DNA of 25,612 nt from a virus. Of this stretch, positions 1,121-15,163 are shown piece by piece (within the stretch, counting starts at the first letter, position 1; each line of letters begins with the position of its first letter). A program made the translations under genes and the position numbers. Where the stretch lies: positions 1 to 25,612 of IMG/VR virus record IMGVR_UViG_3300042516_001063; one strand, given 5' to 3'. Below the pieces are notes generated by a model. That model was not told the origin of the DNA, searched no databases, and saw only the letters and a list, made by a program, of their open reading frames with translations.

Positions 1121-1696
1121 ATGAGCGATAAATACAAAGAAATAATTAAACAAGAGTATAGGAAATGTTTTCAAGATCCTATATACTTTATGAAGAAGTA
1201 TTGTGTGATTCAACATCCACAAAAAGGTAAAATCAACTTTAACTTATACCCATATCAGGAAGATTGTTTACGAGACTTTAACACATATGATTACAATATT
1301 ATATTGAAATCAAGACAGCTAGGTATATCAACCTTATGTGCTGCTTATTCGTTATGGTATATGACATTTTATGGAGATAAAAATATAATGGTACTTGCAA
1401 CTAAACAAGAAGTAGCTAAAAATCTAGTAACTAAAGTTAGAGTAATGTATCAGAATTTACCTAGTTGGATAAAAGTACCTTCTGTAGAAGATAATAAATT
1501 AAGTCTTAGATTTAAAAATGGTTCACAAATAAAAGCTACAACAACAAATAGTGATGCAGGTCGTTCTGAATCATTATCGATGCTTGTTGTAGATGAATGT
1601 GTATCTGGCACGACACATATTAAGGTTCGTAATAAAAAAACAGGCGAGATTAAACATATACAAATATCAGAGTTATATAACGAATTGAAAAACTGA
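1121..1696 (+). CDS. terL: Terminase large subunit, N-terminal piece fused to the N-half of split intein 1
   Basis: Encodes the N-terminal part of the T4 gp17-type packaging motor. Residues 1-159 are terminase: SRQLGIST (64-71) occupies the Walker A/adenine-binding position (T4-type SRQLG), and MLVVDE (154-159) is the Walker B strand with the catalytic Asp-Glu pair. Immediately after that Glu comes Cys160, which starts a 32-residue intein N-fragment (CVSGTTHIKV and on, block A-like), and the frame stops at TGA. The missing terminase sequence resumes as CAFIDN in the gene at 2729. A free-standing endonuclease gene lies between. The known parallel is the 'fractured gene' arrangement and the atypically split TerL inteins (AceL-TerL type) described from metagenomes. 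This piece alone cannot act as an ATPase because it ends inside the active site. Confidence 0.92.
   Translation: MSDKYKEIIKQEYRKCFQDPIYFMKKYCVIQHPQKGKINFNLYPYQEDCLRDFNTYDYNIILKSRQLGISTLCAAYSLWYMTFYGDKNIMVLATKQEVAKNLVTKVRVMYQNLPSWIKVPSVEDNKLSLRFKNGSQIKATTTNSDAGRSESLSMLVVDECVSGTTHIKVRNKKTGEIKHIQISELYNELKN
1598..1693 (+). other. Split intein 1, N-fragment (32 residues)
   Basis: Begins with the nucleophilic Cys directly after Asp-Glu of Walker B, followed by a block A-like pattern C-V-S-G-x(3)-I-x-V. It is only 32 residues long, far shorter than the roughly 100-residue N-fragments of DnaE split inteins; the SxxH block B lies in the other half. Net charge is about +3 (5 Lys, 1 Arg, 3 Glu). Partner: residues encoded at 2729-3058. 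Confidence 0.88.
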
Positions 1697-1704
1697 TATT
1701 GTGT

Positions 1705-1712
1705 ATATTTAT
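1705..1712 (+). promoter_or_regulatory. ATATTTAT motif before the first endonuclease gene
   Basis: The octamer lies 18 bases before the ATG at 1731, in the gap between the intein N-fragment stop and the endonuclease start. If it is a late promoter, the endonuclease has its own transcript start inside the broken terL gene. Promoter function is inferred from recurrence of the motif. Confidence 0.35.
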
Positions 1713-1730
1713 ATGTATAATAGATGCTAT

Positions 1731-2744
1731 ATGGACAATAAAGAAATATTATCTAAAATTTATATAAATGGTAGCCTACATCATGACGTACTACAAACTA
1801 CGTTTTTTAAAAAGCGTAATATAGAAAATGTATATCAAGCTATATTAGATAACACATCATTTTTAAATGATTATGATCCTAGTTTACGAGAACGAATATA
1901 TTATATAGAACATGATTATAATGATGTACAACGATGCCCATATTGTAACACCAATAAACTTAAGTTTAATGGTAAGTATAATCCATTTAGTAAGACATGT
2001 TTACAAAAAGAATGTGTCACTAAACATAGAAATATAGTGGCTATCGAAAAGTGGTCACGTAGTACAAAACGAATTCAATATATGGAAGATATTTGTAATG
2101 GGTGTGGTACTACGTATAAAAAGGCAAAGAATTCAATTAAACGATATTGTACTCAAAAGTGTTGGACATTAAACGGTGATTATGTACATTCAGAAGTGAC
2201 AAAACAAAAGATTAGAAATACTAATAGTGTTGTTCATAGTAGTATAGAATTCAAAGAAAAACATAAACAGACATATCTTAATGCAAGACATAAACAGTCT
2301 GAGACTATGAAACGTAAAATAGCAAATGGGGAGTTTACGCCATGCATTACAAATTCATGGACTAGATGGAAAGCACAATTAAATATTAACGGCACAATAA
2401 AAAAGTTTAGGAGTATGTGGGAAGCTGCATTCTACTCATTAAATACACATTTACAATACGAAGTTACCAGGATACCATATATAATCGATAACAATTCGCA
2501 TACATATATAGTTGATTTTACTGATAATACTAATAAAATATTATATGAGATAAAACCAAAATCGTTAGTAGAACACCCCCGAAATATTGTTAAACAAACA
2601 GCAGCTCAAAACTGGTGTAAAAATATGGGATATTCGTATGTAGTTATCGATGATGATTGGTACATTAGTAACTTTGATAGATTTGATTTGACAAAACATC
2701 CTGAACTTACAACTGTAATTAATTCTATATGCAAAAAGAAATAG
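1731..2744 (+). CDS. Free-standing homing-endonuclease-like protein, PD-(D/E)XK type, in the first terL break
   Basis: A 337-residue protein if started at the ATG 1731; an upstream GTG (1701) would add ten residues but overlaps the promoter-like motif. Visible parts: two Cys clusters that could bind zinc (C69-x2-C72 with C90-x4-C95, and C122-x2-C125 with C140-x3-C144); NUMOD3-like SEVTKQKI (154-161) and SETMKRKI (190-197) typical of DNA-binding tails of homing endonucleases; and a C-terminal nuclease-like region with Glu231, YIVDF (Asp262) and YEIKPK (Glu273, Lys275), fitting a PD-(D/E)XK site. It sits between the two halves of split intein 1, and its 3' end overlaps the next gene by 16 bases. 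The likely role is cutting intein-free terL alleles to spread the element. The family assignment is from motif reading only. Confidence 0.8.
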   Translation: MDNKEILSKIYINGSLHHDVLQTTFFKKRNIENVYQAILDNTSFLNDYDPSLRERIYYIEHDYNDVQRCPYCNTNKLKFNGKYNPFSKTCLQKECVTKHRNIVAIEKWSRSTKRIQYMEDICNGCGTTYKKAKNSIKRYCTQKCWTLNGDYVHSEVTKQKIRNTNSVVHSSIEFKEKHKQTYLNARHKQSETMKRKIANGEFTPCITNSWTRWKAQLNINGTIKKFRSMWEAAFYSLNTHLQYEVTRIPYIIDNNSHTYIVDFTDNTNKILYEIKPKSLVEHPRNIVKQTAAQNWCKNMGYSYVVIDDDWYISNFDRFDLTKHPELTTVINSICKKK

Positions 2745-3058
2745 TACATAATAGTGATTGGGAGATATTAACACCATCAGGGTGGTCAGATTTTATAGGC
2801 GTATCAAAGACTACTAAAAATGTAATGTTTACAATAACTTTTGATGATGGTACAACACTACAATGTAGCGAATGGCATTTATTAAAATACCCAAATGGTG
2901 AATTTTTAGACGCATGTCATGTATTATCGGGCGATATTTTATTTGGGGGTAAAGTTGTAACATCGGTTACGTATGAATTAGGTGAATTTGAATTATATGA
3001 TGCAATGGAAGTTGAATTAGATAATGAATATTTTACCAATGATGTCGTAAGTCACAAC
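2729..3058 (+). other. Split intein 1, C-fragment (110 residues)
   Basis: Contains DWEILTPSGWSDF near the start, block B SEWH (47-50), a block F-like ELYDAMEVE, and ends in Ser-His-Asn followed by Cys as the +1 residue. It is strongly acidic (about 19 Asp/Glu against 5 Lys), complementary to the basic N-fragment. In block F the usual His is replaced (DNEYF, compared with DSHKF in the second intein). Confidence 0.9.
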
Positions 3059-3421
3059 TGCGCGTTTATCGACAATATAGATACGGTATGGGCAGCAGCT
3101 CAACAAACACTTGCTACAGGAGGAAAAGCAATTTTATTATCATCACCTAATGGTACCGGCAACTTTTTTCATAAAACATGGGAGGACGCAGAGAATAATC
3201 CTAAAAGTAGATTTCATCATATTCGATTACCATGGACAGTACATCCAGAAAGAGATCAAGCTTGGAGAGAAAAACAAGATGAATTATTAGGGCCAAGAAT
3301 GGCTTCGCAAGAATGTTTGGATGGCGATTGTTTAGTTACGGTATATGATACAATAACTGATGAAGTTAAGGAAATGACATTATTTCAGCTATATAAAGAA
3401 AATAGAAATGTTAACCTGTAA
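2729..3421 (+). CDS. terL: C-half of intein 1 + terminase middle piece + N-half of intein 2
   Basis: A 230-residue three-part protein. Residues 1-110 are the intein 1 C-fragment, ending in VVSHN; SEWH (47-50) fits the block B SxxH pattern. Residues 111-195 are terminase: CAFIDN completes the Walker B region, and LLSSPNGTGN is the coupling (motif III-like) segment, running to MASQE. Residues 196-230 begin CLDGDCLVTV and are the N-fragment of a second split intein, ending at TAA. The start at 2729 is forced because the next Met would remove conserved intein sequence; it lies inside the upstream endonuclease gene. To yield functional terminase this protein must splice at both ends, to the products of 1121-1696 and 4292-5464. 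A middle piece with a trans-splicing element on each side is very unusual. Confidence 0.92.
   Translation: MQKEIVHNSDWEILTPSGWSDFIGVSKTTKNVMFTITFDDGTTLQCSEWHLLKYPNGEFLDACHVLSGDILFGGKVVTSVTYELGEFELYDAMEVELDNEYFTNDVVSHNCAFIDNIDTVWAAAQQTLATGGKAILLSSPNGTGNFFHKTWEDAENNPKSRFHHIRLPWTVHPERDQAWREKQDELLGPRMASQECLDGDCLVTVYDTITDEVKEMTLFQLYKENRNVNL
3314..3418 (+). other. Split intein 2, N-fragment (35 residues)
   Basis: Starts at Cys after MASQE with block A-like CLDGDCLVTV. It carries an additional Cys at position 6. Net charge is about -4, opposite in sign to the N-fragment of intein 1. Its partner is the C-fragment encoded at 4292-4612. The insertion lies in the conserved terminase segment between the ATPase and nuclease parts (QE|CDADF after splicing). 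Confidence 0.88.
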
Positions 3422-4295
3422 AGTTTGTAATACATATACCGCAAAACAATTGTTTCAACACTTACATAGTGTGCATGATATGTCTATTGCTGAATATAGA
3501 GATTTATACGGTAAGCATGAAGTAGTACAAATGGGGTTTAATCCTAAGACTAGTACATTATATAAAACTTCTGATCAAATACTATCTAATCGTGTAAAGG
3601 GTGGGTATTCTAAAATATATAATAAATTAGATAATGTTTCTACATATGATTTAAGTAAAACTATTGAATTGCTAAAACATAATGATTTATATACTAGATA
3701 TATAGGAAAATCAAAATACCGTACTATGATAAATGATGATTCTAAATTATATAAATCAGTAATACATCATACTAGCAATTTAGATAAACATTTTAAACGA
3801 GTATCATTTACTAATCGTATAGAATATTTAATATCTGATTTAGATGATTCATACATAATGTGTTCATGTAAGCAAGAACATACTTTTAATAAATACTGCA
3901 ATAAATGTCCCGACAGACCCGGGAGTCGAACTGCCCAAGGTAAAACTGTATCTGATGAGACTAGAAAGCGAATACGAATAAGTACATTGAATTACATATC
4001 TAAGATGAAATCAAAACGAATAATGCCTAGATATAATGTTAATTCAATATCTATAATTGAGGAATATGGAATTACTAACGGATATTCATTCATACATGCA
4101 GAGAATGTTGGTGAATATCATATTAAAGAATTGGGATACTTCTTAGATGCATACGATCCTATAAAAAATGTAGTTTTAGAGATTGATGAATCGCATCATT
4201 ATGATAAAGATGGGCAGTTAATAGAAAAAGATGTTAGGAGACAAAAAGAAATTGAGGATTATTTACAATGCAAATTTATTCGTATACGTATATGA
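3408..4295 (+). CDS. Free-standing homing-endonuclease-like protein, Vsr/EDxHD type, in the second terL break
   Basis: A 295-residue protein. The N-terminus looks like a zinc finger (C4-x2-C7, then H18 and H23) followed by MSIAEYRDLYG. A second Cys cluster is C152, C154, C164, C167. SDETRKRI (182-189) resembles NUMOD3. The C-terminal 60 residues have the layout of very-short-patch-repair-like endonucleases: GYFLDAYD (Asp247), VLEIDESHH (Glu258, Asp260, His263/264), then KDVRRQKEI and a closing FIRIRI strand. This matches the endonuclease type known from fractured genes (EDxHD/Vsr-like). It starts 14 bases before the stop of the upstream piece and ends in an ATGA overlap with the next, so all are translationally coupled. 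It is unrelated in its nuclease core to the endonuclease in the first break. Confidence 0.82.
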   Translation: MLTCKVCNTYTAKQLFQHLHSVHDMSIAEYRDLYGKHEVVQMGFNPKTSTLYKTSDQILSNRVKGGYSKIYNKLDNVSTYDLSKTIELLKHNDLYTRYIGKSKYRTMINDDSKLYKSVIHHTSNLDKHFKRVSFTNRIEYLISDLDDSYIMCSCKQEHTFNKYCNKCPDRPGSRTAQGKTVSDETRKRIRISTLNYISKMKSKRIMPRYNVNSISIIEEYGITNGYSFIHAENVGEYHIKELGYFLDAYDPIKNVVLEIDESHHYDKDGQLIEKDVRRQKEIEDYLQCKFIRIRI

Positions 4296-4612
4296 TACAA
4301 AACAGATATAAAATTTTAACGCCGAATGGATTTGAAGATTTTGACGGCGTGCAAAAAATAACTCATACTGGATATGTATTGGTTAAATTAAGTAATGGCG
4401 TAGAAATTAAATGTTCTAAAAATCATGCGTTTATATTAGATGACAGAGAAATATTTGCACATGAGTTATATGAAGGATGTGAAATAGATACAACCACATC
4501 GGAATCCGTATATGTCATATCAATATCATATATAAACGAAATAATTGATTTATTTGATATATTAAATGTAGATTCACATAAATTCATAGTTAATGGTTTA
4601 GTGTCACATAAT
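4292..4612 (+). other. Split intein 2, C-fragment (107 residues)
   Basis: Homologous to the intein 1 C-fragment: both begin with (W/Y)(E/K)ILTP(S/N)G(W/F)xDFxGV and end in VSHN before Cys. It is less acidic (about 16 Asp/Glu, 8 Lys/Arg). Block F has the usual His (DSHKF). Confidence 0.9.
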
Positions 4613-5464
4613 TGTGATGCCGATTTCATTTCATCAGGAAATACATTACTAGATCCAGACTTATTATCCTGGTATGAAAATACAACAGTACAAGAACCTG
4701 TTGAGAAACGAGGGTTTGACGGTAATTTATGGATATGGGAGTATCCAAATTACTCTAGACAGTATGTGGTTAGCGCTGACGTTGCAAGAGGCGATGGTGG
4801 GGACTATTCAGCATTCCATATAATAGATGTAGAAACCTTAACACAGGTTGCTGAATATAAAGGACAAATAGGTACTAAAGAATTTGGACATATGTTAATG
4901 TCAGTTGCTACAGAATATAATAAAGCGTTATTAGTAGTAGAAAATGCTAACGTAGGATGGGCAGCATTACAACCAATTATAGAATCAGGATACGAAAATC
5001 TATTCTATGCAGCAAACGATTTATCTATAATGGATATACAAGCACAAATAGCTAAGGGATATGATCTAAAGGATAAGTATAATATGAAACCTGGATTTAG
5101 TACTACAAGCAGGACTAGACCACTATTAATATCAAAACTAGATACTGTAGCAAGAGAGCGATGTATTATAATTAGAAGTAAGAGACTAATGTCAGAACTT
5201 AGAGTATTTATATGGAAAGGTGATAGAGCCGAAGCTCAATCTGGATATAACGATGATTTAGTTATGTCATTTTGTATAGGACTATGGGTACGAGATACAG
5301 CGTTTAAACTGATACAACAAGGTTTGGATTTAACTAAACGAGCATTAGGTCATATTCATAAATCTGGTGAAACATCAATATATTCACCAGGTATCGTTAG
5401 ACAAACAGGATGGTCAATGTCAAATGGAAAGGGTAGTGAAGAAAGTTTAACCTGGTTAATTTGA
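4292..5464 (+). CDS. terL: C-half of intein 2 + C-terminal terminase piece (nuclease)
   Basis: With the ATG at 4292 (ATGA overlap with the endonuclease stop) the protein has 390 residues; an upstream ATG at 4268 would add eight residues. The first 107 residues are the intein 2 C-fragment, with RYKILTPNGFEDF, block B SKNH (42-45), block F LFDILNVDSHKF and the end LVSHN. Cys at 4613 begins the 283-residue C-extein, CDADFISSG. This holds the RNase H-like nuclease of gp17: SADVARGDGGDY (first Asp), LLVVENANVGW (Glu) and GYNDDLVMSF (last Asp). The spliced terminase would total 527 residues, reasonable for the gp17 family (T4: 610). Both catalytic sites are intact after splicing, so the gene looks active and not decayed. 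Confidence 0.92.
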   Translation: MIQNRYKILTPNGFEDFDGVQKITHTGYVLVKLSNGVEIKCSKNHAFILDDREIFAHELYEGCEIDTTTSESVYVISISYINEIIDLFDILNVDSHKFIVNGLVSHNCDADFISSGNTLLDPDLLSWYENTTVQEPVEKRGFDGNLWIWEYPNYSRQYVVSADVARGDGGDYSAFHIIDVETLTQVAEYKGQIGTKEFGHMLMSVATEYNKALLVVENANVGWAALQPIIESGYENLFYAANDLSIMDIQAQIAKGYDLKDKYNMKPGFSTTSRTRPLLISKLDTVARERCIIIRSKRLMSELRVFIWKGDRAEAQSGYNDDLVMSFCIGLWVRDTAFKLIQQGLDLTKRALGHIHKSGETSIYSPGIVRQTGWSMSNGKGSEESLTWLI

Positions 5465-5493: not shown

Positions 5494-7365
5494 ATGGCAG
5501 AAAAAGATTTATACTCAAGATTAAAACGAATATTCAGCAATAATGTTATTGTTAGACGAATCGGTAAAGATGCAATTAAAGTTGTAGATAATGATGCGCT
5601 ACAATCATCAGGCAATATAAATATAAGTAGATATATAGACAGGTTTACTCGTTTACATGGAGTAAAATCACAACTATCTACTTATAACAACAATTATAAC
5701 TATTATAGTTCAAAAACAGAATTATATACCGATTATGAGGTAATGGATACAGATTCCATTATTAATAGTGCTCTCGACATTTATGCAGATGAAACAGTAA
5801 TGAAAGATGAGTTCGGACAAATATTATCAATACGTAGCGATGACCAAAGAATTACAAAGATATTAGACAATCTATTCTTTGATGTATTAAATGTAGATTT
5901 TAACTTATGGCCTTGGGTTAGAAATATGTGTAAGTATGGAGATTTCTATCTCAAGTTAGACATTCATCCTGAAATAGGAGTAGTAAATGTTACTCCAATG
6001 TCATCATATGAAATGATTAGAGAAGAAGGTGTAGATCCAAATCAACCATATTTAGTACAATTTGCAAATTTTAACTATAAAGGCGTTAAATGGGAAAACT
6101 ATGAAGTAGCCCATTTTAGACTATTATCAGATTCTAACTTTTTACCTTATGGTAAATCAATGCTAGAGGGCGCAAGAAAAGTTTGGAAGCAGTTGACATT
6201 AATGGAAGATGCAATGCTTATTCATAGAATTATGCGTGCACCTGAAAGACGTAAGTTTAAAATAGATATAGGTAATATTCCACCTAATGAGGTTGATGGT
6301 TATATGCAAAAAATCATTAATCAAATGAAAAAGACTCCGTTTATGGATGAAAAAACGGGAGAATATAACTTAAAGTTTAACTTACAAAATATGTTAGAAG
6401 ATTTCTATTTACCAGTACGAGGCCAACAGTCAGGTACTGAAATAGAATCATTAAGTGGTATGGAATGGACAGGTATAGATGACATAGAATATCTTAGAAA
6501 TAGAATGATGGCAGGACTTAAAGTACCAAAAGCATTCTTAGGATATGATGAAAGTATTTCAGGTAAAGCTACATTAGCCGCAGAAGATGTTCGTTTTGCT
6601 AGAACTATTGAAAGAATTCAACGTATAATAATTTCAGAATTAACTAAAATTGCTATTGTCCATTTATATGCACAAGGATTCGAAGGTCCTGATATGATTA
6701 ATTTTGAAATCAAAATGACATCACCATCTGCAATATATGAACAAGAAAAAATAACATTATGGAATTCTAAAGTTGATTTAGGAAAATCAATGATGGAAGG
6801 CAAACTAATGTCATCAGATTTTATATACAAACATGTATTTAACTTTACAGATGATGAAATTGCTAAAATGAATGATGATATTACAAAAGATCAAAAAGAA
6901 GCATTTAGAAGAAATAAAATAGCGGAAGAGGGTGAAGATCCTAAAAACCCTGTAGGTAAACCTGAAGAGGAGGAAGGTGGTGAAGATGAAGAAGAAGGTG
7001 CGGCAAATCCATTTGGTGGTGAAGAGGAAGGAGCAGAAGAAGGCGGTGAAGAAACAGGAGGAGAAGAGACTACTACAGAAGAGGGAGTTGAACGTAAAAC
7101 ACCAGAAGTACCAAAGGGAGGATGGCCTGGAGCAGGCAGACCTAAAGAATCAACAAAATATGGAACTAATAGGCACGTAAGAGGTAGGGATCCATTAGGT
7201 AAAGAAGAATTAAAAAAACTAACTAGAACTACTGAGGATATAAAGAAACAGTTCGGTATCACTAAAATAGATAAAGTTAAAAAACAAGCTAGTAAAATAA
7301 TATCAGAAACTAAAAAGACTGATTCATTATTAGATGAAAATCAAATTATTGACGGTGAAATATAA
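5494..7365 (+). CDS. 20: Portal protein (T4 gp20-like)
   Basis: A 623-residue protein forming the dodecameric DNA gate of the head. T4 gp20-like features include YYSSKTELYTDYEVMD followed by INSALDIYADE (about 70-100), the SYEMIREE region, VAHFRLLSDSNFLPYGKSMLEGARKVW (described in pieces, about 205-230), an MRAPERRKF helix region and LKVPKAFLGYDE. It is longer than T4 gp20 (524) because of a C-terminal extension: a Glu/Gly-rich acidic tract (about 478-535), then GGWPGAGRPKE, KYGTN and GRDPLGKEEL, a Lys-rich end and SLLDENQIIDGEI. It follows terL and starts a run of head genes. The extension may be internal to the head or bind scaffold; that is speculative. Start has an A/T-rich leader without Shine-Dalgarno. 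Confidence 0.93.
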   Translation: MAEKDLYSRLKRIFSNNVIVRRIGKDAIKVVDNDALQSSGNINISRYIDRFTRLHGVKSQLSTYNNNYNYYSSKTELYTDYEVMDTDSIINSALDIYADETVMKDEFGQILSIRSDDQRITKILDNLFFDVLNVDFNLWPWVRNMCKYGDFYLKLDIHPEIGVVNVTPMSSYEMIREEGVDPNQPYLVQFANFNYKGVKWENYEVAHFRLLSDSNFLPYGKSMLEGARKVWKQLTLMEDAMLIHRIMRAPERRKFKIDIGNIPPNEVDGYMQKIINQMKKTPFMDEKTGEYNLKFNLQNMLEDFYLPVRGQQSGTEIESLSGMEWTGIDDIEYLRNRMMAGLKVPKAFLGYDESISGKATLAAEDVRFARTIERIQRIIISELTKIAIVHLYAQGFEGPDMINFEIKMTSPSAIYEQEKITLWNSKVDLGKSMMEGKLMSSDFIYKHVFNFTDDEIAKMNDDITKDQKEAFRRNKIAEEGEDPKNPVGKPEEEEGGEDEEEGAANPFGGEEEGAEEGGEETGGEETTTEEGVERKTPEVPKGGWPGAGRPKESTKYGTNRHVRGRDPLGKEELKKLTRTTEDIKKQFGITKIDKVKKQASKIISETKKTDSLLDENQIIDGEI

Positions 7366-7374
7366 AATTTCATC

Positions 7375-7382
7375 ATATTTAT
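7375..7382 (+). promoter_or_regulatory. ATATTTAT motif before the 280-residue head-module gene
   Basis: The octamer (followed by ATAAAATT) lies 27 bases before the ATG at 7410, in a 44-base gap. Promoter role inferred from recurrence. Confidence 0.38.
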
Positions 7383-7409
7383 ATAAAATTATATCATCAT
7401 AATCATACC

Positions 7410-8252
7410 ATGAAGAAATTAAAGCATTCGAAATTTAAAAATACTGGTATATTATTTGAGATGTTAGTCAGACAAATTGCTGCTGATACCTTAAATAATA
7501 CTAAATCTAAATCGATTGATCTAATTAAAAAGTATTTCAATAAGAATACTGAACTTTCTAAAGAATTAGAACTATACCAAACTCTAATGACTGAAAAGTT
7601 TAACAAAGATACTAAAGCAACTCAATTACTTGAAGCTGTAGTACAAACTAGAAAACAACTAAATAGTCAGGCATTATCTAGACAAAAATATAATCTTATA
7701 AAGGATATACAAAAAGCATATCCAATACAAGAATTTTTTAAATGTAATGTTAATAACTATAAAGAACTAGCTTCAATATATAAATTATTTGAATATGAGT
7801 TAGCAGATAATCCTGCTGATATGGTTAGAACAAGACATGCTATCGTAGAGCAGATTTGTACTAAGAATGCAAGTAAACCTGAAGTTGCTGAACTTAAAGA
7901 ATTTACTCAACAAGATAAAGATATAAGATTACTATCATATAAACTATTAGTTGATAAGTTCAATACAAAATATTCAACATTGAATGGTGCACAGAAAGGA
8001 TTATTAAGAGAATACATAAATAATGTAAATAATACAGTAGCTTTAAAGTCATATATTGATTTAGAAGTTCCCAAATTACAATCAGCATTGAAAATATTTA
8101 TACCTAAAATAGGGGATAAAGTTACTAAAATTAAATTGACTGAAACAGTTTCATTACTAGATAAAATTAAAACATCAAAGTCAATTAAAGATAATCATAT
8201 ATTATCAATGTTACGCTATTACGAATTAGTAAAAGAACTAAAGAAAATATAA
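7410..8252 (+). CDS. Conserved-looking head-module protein of unknown function
   Basis: A 280-residue, Lys-rich, mostly helical protein with an opening KFKNTGILFEMLVRQI and KKYFNKNTELSKELELY (about 40-60). I have the impression of this pattern from marine T4-like phages, where it sits between portal and prohead protease, but I cannot name it. No membrane segment, signal peptide or catalytic motif is visible; one or two cysteines only. Position between gp20 and gp21 is where T4 has prohead core genes 67 and 68, so a core or assembly role is possible. The next gene starts one base after its stop. Confidence 0.72.
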   Translation: MKKLKHSKFKNTGILFEMLVRQIAADTLNNTKSKSIDLIKKYFNKNTELSKELELYQTLMTEKFNKDTKATQLLEAVVQTRKQLNSQALSRQKYNLIKDIQKAYPIQEFFKCNVNNYKELASIYKLFEYELADNPADMVRTRHAIVEQICTKNASKPEVAELKEFTQQDKDIRLLSYKLLVDKFNTKYSTLNGAQKGLLREYINNVNNTVALKSYIDLEVPKLQSALKIFIPKIGDKVTKIKLTETVSLLDKIKTSKSIKDNHILSMLRYYELVKELKKI

Positions 8253-14411: not shown

Positions 14412-14445
14412 CATGTTTAATTTTGAATTCTACGGCAAAATACTT

Positions 14446-14453
14446 ATATTTAT
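14446..14453 (+). promoter_or_regulatory. ATATTTAT motif before the GIY-YIG gene
   Basis: The octamer lies 14 bases before the ATG at 14468 and downstream of the capsid terminator, so this gene would need its own promoter. Promoter role inferred from recurrence. Confidence 0.42.
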
Positions 14454-14467
14454 ATAAAATAACAATT

Positions 14468-15163
14468 ATGGTAATTTATGAAACAATCAATTTAATTAAT
14501 AATAAACGTTACATCGGACAAGATTCGAATGATAATCCAAACTATTTAGGGTCTGGATTTCTGCTTAAAAAAGCAATTGAAAAGTATGGTCGTGAAAATT
14601 TCCTTAAAGTTATAGTAGAACGGTGTGAAACTAAAGAACAGTTAGATCGACGAGAAAAGTATTGGATAGAAATAACTAATGCACAAACATCAGATAACTA
14701 TTATAATATTGTACAAGGTGGCTCTGGTGGTGATAATTGGATGGGTAGAAAGGGTTCCAAGGAATATGAAATATTCAAACGTAAAATGAAAGCTATTCGT
14801 AAGCGACAAAAAAGTTTACCACACACAGAACAAACTAAAGAAAATCAAAGAAAAGCTGCTGTCGACAGATATACCCAAAAATGGTTTCAAAATAAATACG
14901 GTACTGAACTAGGTGAAATAAAGTTCAAAGAACGTAGTAATATGCTATCAAAACAAAATTCCGGTGCTAATAATGGTGCATACAAACATATAGACAGAGA
15001 GGAATTTAGAAAAGATGTACTGTCAGGCTTAGATAAACCAACCATACAAAAGAAACATAACCTAGGATCTACAGCGTTTACTAATAAAATGTTAGATGTA
15101 TTTAATACAAGTAAAATACGAGAAGCTAGAAAGCTATATAATTCTACTCTAGTACAACCATAG
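14468..15163 (+). CDS. GIY-YIG homing endonuclease, free-standing
   Basis: A 231-residue protein from ATG 14468; a longer frame from 14423 would start before the promoter-like motif and add residues not typical of the family. The N-terminal 90 residues are a GIY-YIG nuclease: VIYETINLINNKRYIGQ holds the two signature elements (IY at 3-4, YIG at 15-17), followed by YLGSG, the KAIEKYG helix, catalytic-type Glu63 in EKYWIE and YYNIVQGGSGG. The C-terminal half is basic and probably binds DNA; the last 55 residues (KPTIQKKHNLGSTAF) look like a helix-turn-helix. It is inserted between the capsid and phoH genes and likely cuts the matching site in related phages, like the seg genes of T4. Confidence 0.88.
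   Translation: MVIYETINLINNKRYIGQDSNDNPNYLGSGFLLKKAIEKYGRENFLKVIVERCETKEQLDRREKYWIEITNAQTSDNYYNIVQGGSGGDNWMGRKGSKEYEIFKRKMKAIRKRQKSLPHTEQTKENQRKAAVDRYTQKWFQNKYGTELGEIKFKERSNMLSKQNSGANNGAYKHIDREEFRKDVLSGLDKPTIQKKHNLGSTAFTNKMLDVFNTSKIREARKLYNSTLVQP

Follow-up and report, generated by a model that had tools for sequence, protein, structure and literature searches.

A phage terminase gene broken at two sites by split inteins, with an endonuclease-like gene in each break

In the fractured phage genes said to have been described by Dassa et al. in 2009, the halves of a split intein surround a free-standing endonuclease, and each gene is reportedly broken in two. Here we analyse the terminase gene terL at positions 1,121 to 5,464 of IMGVR_UViG_3300042516_001063, a 25,612-nt stretch of DNA from an uncultured phage (the window). 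As is reported for those genes, intein halves flank a free-standing endonuclease-like gene within a conserved phage gene, but the terL of the window is broken at two places, into three pieces and with two endonuclease types, and so is not a single fracture. AceL-TerL, GOS-TerL and Cat, an engineered consensus (6DSL), are atypically split TerL inteins that have been studied as single inteins (PMC11766414). The window shares with them the host protein, a very short N-half, a C-half of ~105 aa and a direct sequence match, but in the window two members break up a single gene, and the lineage at the first site is distinct. Among cultured phages, Yersinia TG1 has a terL split at the first of these two sites, with an endonuclease of the same family as the first one in the window, while Aeromonas PX29, Serratia 92A1 and Vibrio EniLVp02 have a terL split at the second, with a GIY-YIG endonuclease where one is present; all four have a single break only. 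The terL of Jug phage occurs in two to three fragments, ascribed to group I introns (PMC12363816). Both genes thus reach up to three fragments, with joining at the RNA level in Jug and, as we read it, by inteins in the window. Single split-intein fractures, atypically split TerL inteins and intron-fragmented terL genes are already known, whereas two breaks in one gene are rare and new. Searches of the open-access literature, which did not cover all key papers, returned no report of two split inteins in one gene, and to our knowledge no doubly fractured gene has been described before.

The terL coding sequence of the window is divided over three open reading frames (ORFs) on the + strand (1121-1696, 2729-3421 and 4292-5464, with 4268 as an alternative start for the last). 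The first encodes the TerL N-extein (1121..1597, 159 aa), which ends on the Walker B residues LVVDE, matches PF03237 (E 1e-7) and phrog_5989 (E 2e-52) and is 99% identical to the intact TerL of a relative, L004. Its frame runs on into IN1, the N-half of split intein 1 (1598..1696 including the stop, coding 1598-1693; 32 aa beginning with Cys1); relatives carry N-halves homologous to it at this site. The first endonuclease-like gene, HE1 (1731..2744, +, with GTG 1701 as an alternative start), is followed by IC1, the C-half of split intein 1 (2729..3058, 110 aa, ending in SHN), which starts inside the end of HE1. IC1 leads into the middle extein (3059..3313, 85 aa, Cys+1 first), which matches phrog_2 and aligns to the intact L004 TerL, and then into IN2, the N-half of split intein 2 (3314..3421 including the stop, coding 3314-3418; 35 aa, Cys1). 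The second endonuclease-like gene, HE2 (3408..4295, +, 295 aa), precedes IC2, the C-half of split intein 2 (4292..4612, 107 aa ending in SHN, or 115 aa from the alternative ATG at 4268). The TerL C-extein with the nuclease domain (4613..5464, 283 aa plus stop, Cys+1 first) completes the gene; it matches phrog_24361 (E 9e-16) and is 49.8% identical to the terminase of Microcystis phage Mel-JY01.

The two break sites lie 85 codons apart. Site 1 immediately follows the DE of Walker B, and site 2 follows a QE in the stretch that separates the ATPase motifs from the nuclease domain. At both, the fractured-gene layout is present, with an N-half after one piece and a C-half before the next. Three of the four internal gene boundaries of this five-gene locus overlap; the HE2 stop and the start of IC2 are joined by an ATGA overlap, and relative L107 has a like arrangement at the same joint. 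The initial annotation had described three separately translated terminase pieces of 159, 85 and 283 residues, with Cys-starting N-fragments and SHN/C C-fragments of two inteins (the slash marks the junction). The ORFs, junctions and motifs bear this out, and its coordinates stand, with the minor corrections that three of the four internal boundaries overlap and that the last piece is best started at 4292. The pieces sum to 527 aa, the expected product of both splices. This total, also put forward at the outset, agrees with a gapless alignment to the uninterrupted 527-aa TerL of L004, which has both sites empty. The two proteins differ at six residues. Among these is residue 160, at the +1 position of site 1, where L004 has Ala and the window has Cys.

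Comparison with characterised inteins supports the assignment of both elements to the atypically split TerL type. Both C-halves match the CatC part of 6DSL (IC1, E 6.7e-14; IC2, E 4.7e-11), and the residues needed for splicing are present: Cys1, the block B Ser and His, the terminal His-Asn and Cys+1. The lengths of the N-halves (32 and 35 aa) and C-halves (110 and 107 aa) fit those of atypically split TerL inteins (~25-37 aa and ~105 aa). Halves of the same kinds are found in ~39 distinct copies of TerL inteins at these two sites. The halves are not chance matches, because both C-halves match Cat and halves of these kinds recur in these copies. For the one-piece mini-intein at site 2 of another relative, L010, a structural model adopts the HINT fold (pLDDT 94), with Cat, gp41-1 and VidaL as best matches; it was built with split halves in the alignment, and the fold evidence is that relative's and not that of the halves in the window. 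The two N-halves of the window are 31% identical to each other and the two C-halves 27%. RNA introns were considered as a source of the breaks and rejected, as an Rfam search of both breaks returned one sub-threshold chance match and no group I or group II intron. Net charge was likewise set aside as a basis of pair specificity: IN1 (+3) and IC1 (-14) fit such a rule, IN2 (-4) and IC2 (-8) do not, and other loci do not follow it.

Each gap was also said to hold a free-standing endonuclease-like gene, and this agrees with the Pfam match of HE1 and with the position, orthologues and weak fold matches of HE2. HE1 exceeds the PF08722 cut-off (29.3 bits against 26.5) and matches the endonuclease family phrog_15427 (E 6e-33). 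By its sequence it is a TnsA-like PD-(D/E)XK protein and a putative homing endonuclease. The N terminus of HE2 resembles a ROS/MucR zinc finger (E 4e-4 in a family member), and its C terminus, possibly Vsr/EDxHD-like, weakly resembles Vsr-type nucleases including I-Bth0305I. A low-confidence model of HE2 (pLDDT 59, better in the C-terminal third) weakly matches 3R3P (E 0.6) and 1VSR (E 1.1); an HE2 profile run against the PDB gave chance matches only. Orthologues of HE2 occupy the same place in L107 and in L122.

Relatives of HE1 also occur in split inteins directly after the Walker B DE of other ATPases, namely helicases (DE/CH), a clamp-loader-like ATPase (DE/CDF) and PhoH (DE/CQN), as seen in L270, L274, L276, L280, L283, L289, L292, L296 and L298. 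Both junctions were found in 34 of the 55 loci searched (many redundant), all of them DE/C; the scan sought [DN]EC and is biased to DE/C, so that it cannot alone show other sites to be absent, and the downstream junctions independently support DE/C. Elsewhere in the window, a GIY-YIG homing-endonuclease-like gene (14423-15163) is directly preceded by a 559-aa ORF that probably encodes the major capsid protein, and a PhoH-like gene comes after it.

The same double break is present in L001, L002 and L009, contigs of three other metagenomes, at >99.5% DNA identity. L001 and L002 carry the arrangement in full and L009 carries it as far as part of the C-extein; L084, L085 and L003 carry it in part, and in L084 and L085 the site-1 break is present and the contigs end before site 2 can be measured. 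Along the exteins, the intein-free L004 is ~93-99% identical to the window. A second natural pair of filled and empty alleles is formed by L122, with site 2 filled, and L294, with site 2 empty (99.6-99.7% DNA identity).

To place the double break among other phages, both sites were scored in a first table of 163 TerL loci, later extended; the queries were enriched for inteins, so the occupancy counts are not frequencies. Both sites are empty in 126 of the 163 loci in the first table; many lineages carry an insert at site 1 only, and others at site 2 only. Across the table and its extension, both are filled only in the species of the window, in L006 and in L010, and both are split only in the species of the window and in the diverged L006. 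In L006, an HE1 orthologue sits in site 1 and site 2 is a bare 14-nt ORF overlap; in L010, site 1 is split with another endonuclease and site 2 holds the contiguous mini-intein. Thus contiguous forms, split forms without an endonuclease and split forms with one all exist for the site-2 intein, since the three loci differ there. The C-half tree divides the copies by site into two groups, apart from a single long-branch sequence (fork support 94/92), and each intein of the window pairs with the L006 copy at the same site (support 100/99 and 98/91). On this phylogenetic evidence, the inteins of the two sites represent separate lineages, both of them old. That one intein was duplicated inside terL was rejected on the same grounds, the separate site groups and the closeness of each window copy to the same-site copy of L006. 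The state of the sites changes between empty and filled at least 17 times over supported branches of the TerL tree, by which measure the inteins are repeatedly gained and lost.

The double break is rare but recurrent. The expectation that two breaks in one gene would be exceptional holds, given the few doubly filled loci, but the double break is not unique to the species of the window, as L006 is also split twice. No phage isolate with two terL breaks was found at the sensitivity used, in a search that was not exhaustive. The uvsW gene of Proteus phage PM2, considered as a second doubly broken gene, was rejected; it has a single split intein and a separate downstream endonuclease gene.

Several features of these loci bear on function. 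Of 175 alleles with an empty site 1, 171 have Ala at the +1 position; of 21 with this site filled, 20 have Cys there and the remaining one Ser. At site 2, Cys is already usual in empty alleles (173/179). L007, which lies within the TerL clade of the window, and L107 have an empty site 1 and yet carry Cys at +1, which may be the footprint of a lost intein. For the C-halves and the endonucleases, dN is well below dS. All frames are open throughout the window locus, and L006 likewise keeps every piece open.

The nucleotide differences between these contigs carry signs of mobility. Over the 3,015-nt block that begins with IN1 and closes with IC2, the window has zero mismatches to L001, L002 and L009, and outside this block L002 has 55 mismatches and L009 has 13; L084 shows one mismatch within the part of the block that it covers. 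Most of the flanking single-nucleotide differences checked are alleles of the intein-free L004, arranged in differing mosaics, the nearest 19 nt from site 1. Against L004, the middle exon differs at 20 of 255 positions and the flanks at 33 of 1,805 (p 1.6e-6). The simplest reading of these patterns is that the block, including the middle exon, moved by recombination into L004-like genomes, and they suggest a recent homing-like spread of the 3-kb block. An ordinary recombination sweep would leave a trace similar to that of homing by HE1 or HE2. One event could carry both inteins, because the sites are only 255 bp apart.

We consider it quite probable that a T4-like terL gene was invaded by two split-intein lineages, is rejoined by two trans-splicing reactions and was spread as a block by HE1 or HE2 with recombination. 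Two separate lineages of atypically split TerL inteins would have entered at two conserved motifs, leaving five overlapping or closely spaced genes that would encode TerL-N::IN1, HE1, IC1::middle::IN2, HE2 and IC2::TerL-C. IN1 would pair with IC1 to fold into one HINT domain, and IN2 with IC2 to fold into another. Two trans-splicing reactions, using Cys1, the terminal Asn and Cys+1, would then join the three polypeptides into a 527-residue TerL with Cys for Ala at residue 160, and HE1, HE2 or both, together with phage recombination, would carry the block into terL alleles that lack it. It reasonably follows that packaging would depend on the three polypeptides being joined.

We also offer, tentatively and leaning slightly against it ourselves, a bolder proposal in two parts: that the 85-codon middle exon, the two split inteins and their endonucleases form one composite mobile unit, all 3 kb of which would be copied after cutting at either empty site, and that the middle protein, laid out as C-half, extein and N-half, favoured divergence of the intein pairs, giving rise in nature to double trans-splicing by mutually specific pairs. 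The same layout is used artificially for making cyclic peptides. Cross-pairing of IN2 with IC1 would cyclise the middle piece, and that of IN1 with IC2 would delete it.

Several points weigh against the splicing and spread of the block as proposed here. We infer the splicing itself, the pair specificity, the DNA cutting and the dependence of packaging on splicing; HE2 is without a firm family; dS is near saturation in the between-lineage comparison; and the uninterrupted L004 allele could serve co-infected cells. A second terL was not seen in the contigs examined, but all of these are fragments, and another copy may lie outside them. In a published panel, atypically split inteins were the type that most often cross-reacted (PMC7090010), and cross-reaction here would yield mis-joined products. 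That report also lends weight to the view that only one intein splices efficiently, or that the pairs cross-react, and that full-length TerL is a minor product. We regard this as unlikely: the C-half, extein, N-half layout of the middle protein and the N- and C-half identities of 31% and 27% are compatible with it, but an essential motor could ill afford heavy cross-reaction, and the inteins belong to separate lineages.

It is improbable that the inteins have decayed, leaving the doubly broken terL dead and the phage reliant on intact TerL from co-infecting L004-like phages. An intact allele does circulate in close relatives, and at the window locus splicing is something we infer, but the catalytic residues are intact, Cys+1 tracks occupancy and dN is below dS; moreover, the block is nearly unchanged across contigs, with open frames, and the diverged L006 keeps all pieces open. 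Unspliced pieces that assemble non-covalently, with the intein halves as harmless remnants or docking parts, would have a precedent in phage genes whose pieces work unjoined, such as the split ribonucleotide reductase mentioned in PMC10448857 from other work. We judge this highly improbable for terL, as one break interrupts the ATPase core immediately behind the Walker B Glu, a poor place for non-covalent assembly, and complete intein motifs and Cys+1 are kept. An assembly or binning artefact, against which the initial annotation had also guarded, would be conceivable given the exclusively metagenomic origin, but its probability is negligible: contigs of other metagenomes repeat the same 3-kb arrangement and L006 is doubly broken at greater divergence, and we take the locus to be genuine. 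The proposed invasion by two split inteins, rejoining by trans-splicing and spread as a block is thus the account we prefer.

Some observations on relatives stand apart from this argument. In Campylobacter phage F341 (OQ864999.1; L102 1489-2817, L293 1495-2211), the halves of a site-1 split terL lie far apart and on opposite strands, the C-half piece at 1489-2817 and the N-half piece near 108.1-108.7 kb of the 131.7-kb circular record. The portal gene of L294 (4355-7420) appears to hold a contiguous intein, several hundred residues long and in part endonuclease-like, and in L113 a TnpB-like ORF (6683-7900), judged by eye, follows a site-1-split terL. In the cultured T4-like phages L097, L099, L101 and L103, a split-terL piece or the endonuclease in the break is annotated as 'hypothetical protein'. 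The host of the window phage is likely a member of the Bacteroidota, because Shine-Dalgarno-like motifs are nearly absent (4 of 29 gene starts in the window), the nearest isolates include Flavobacterium phages and the near relative L294 sits in a Chitinophagaceae metagenome-assembled genome.

The natural filled and empty alleles are a substrate for direct homing tests with two kinds of endonuclease. If splicing occurs as proposed, the locus would be a natural case in which two split inteins in one gene assemble a protein from three polypeptides. Its two very short N-halves, expected to be mutually specific, would then be a pair ready for use in protein engineering and would allow the evolution of pair specificity to be tested, and an essential packaging motor would be seen to tolerate two fractures, one of them inside the ATPase core.

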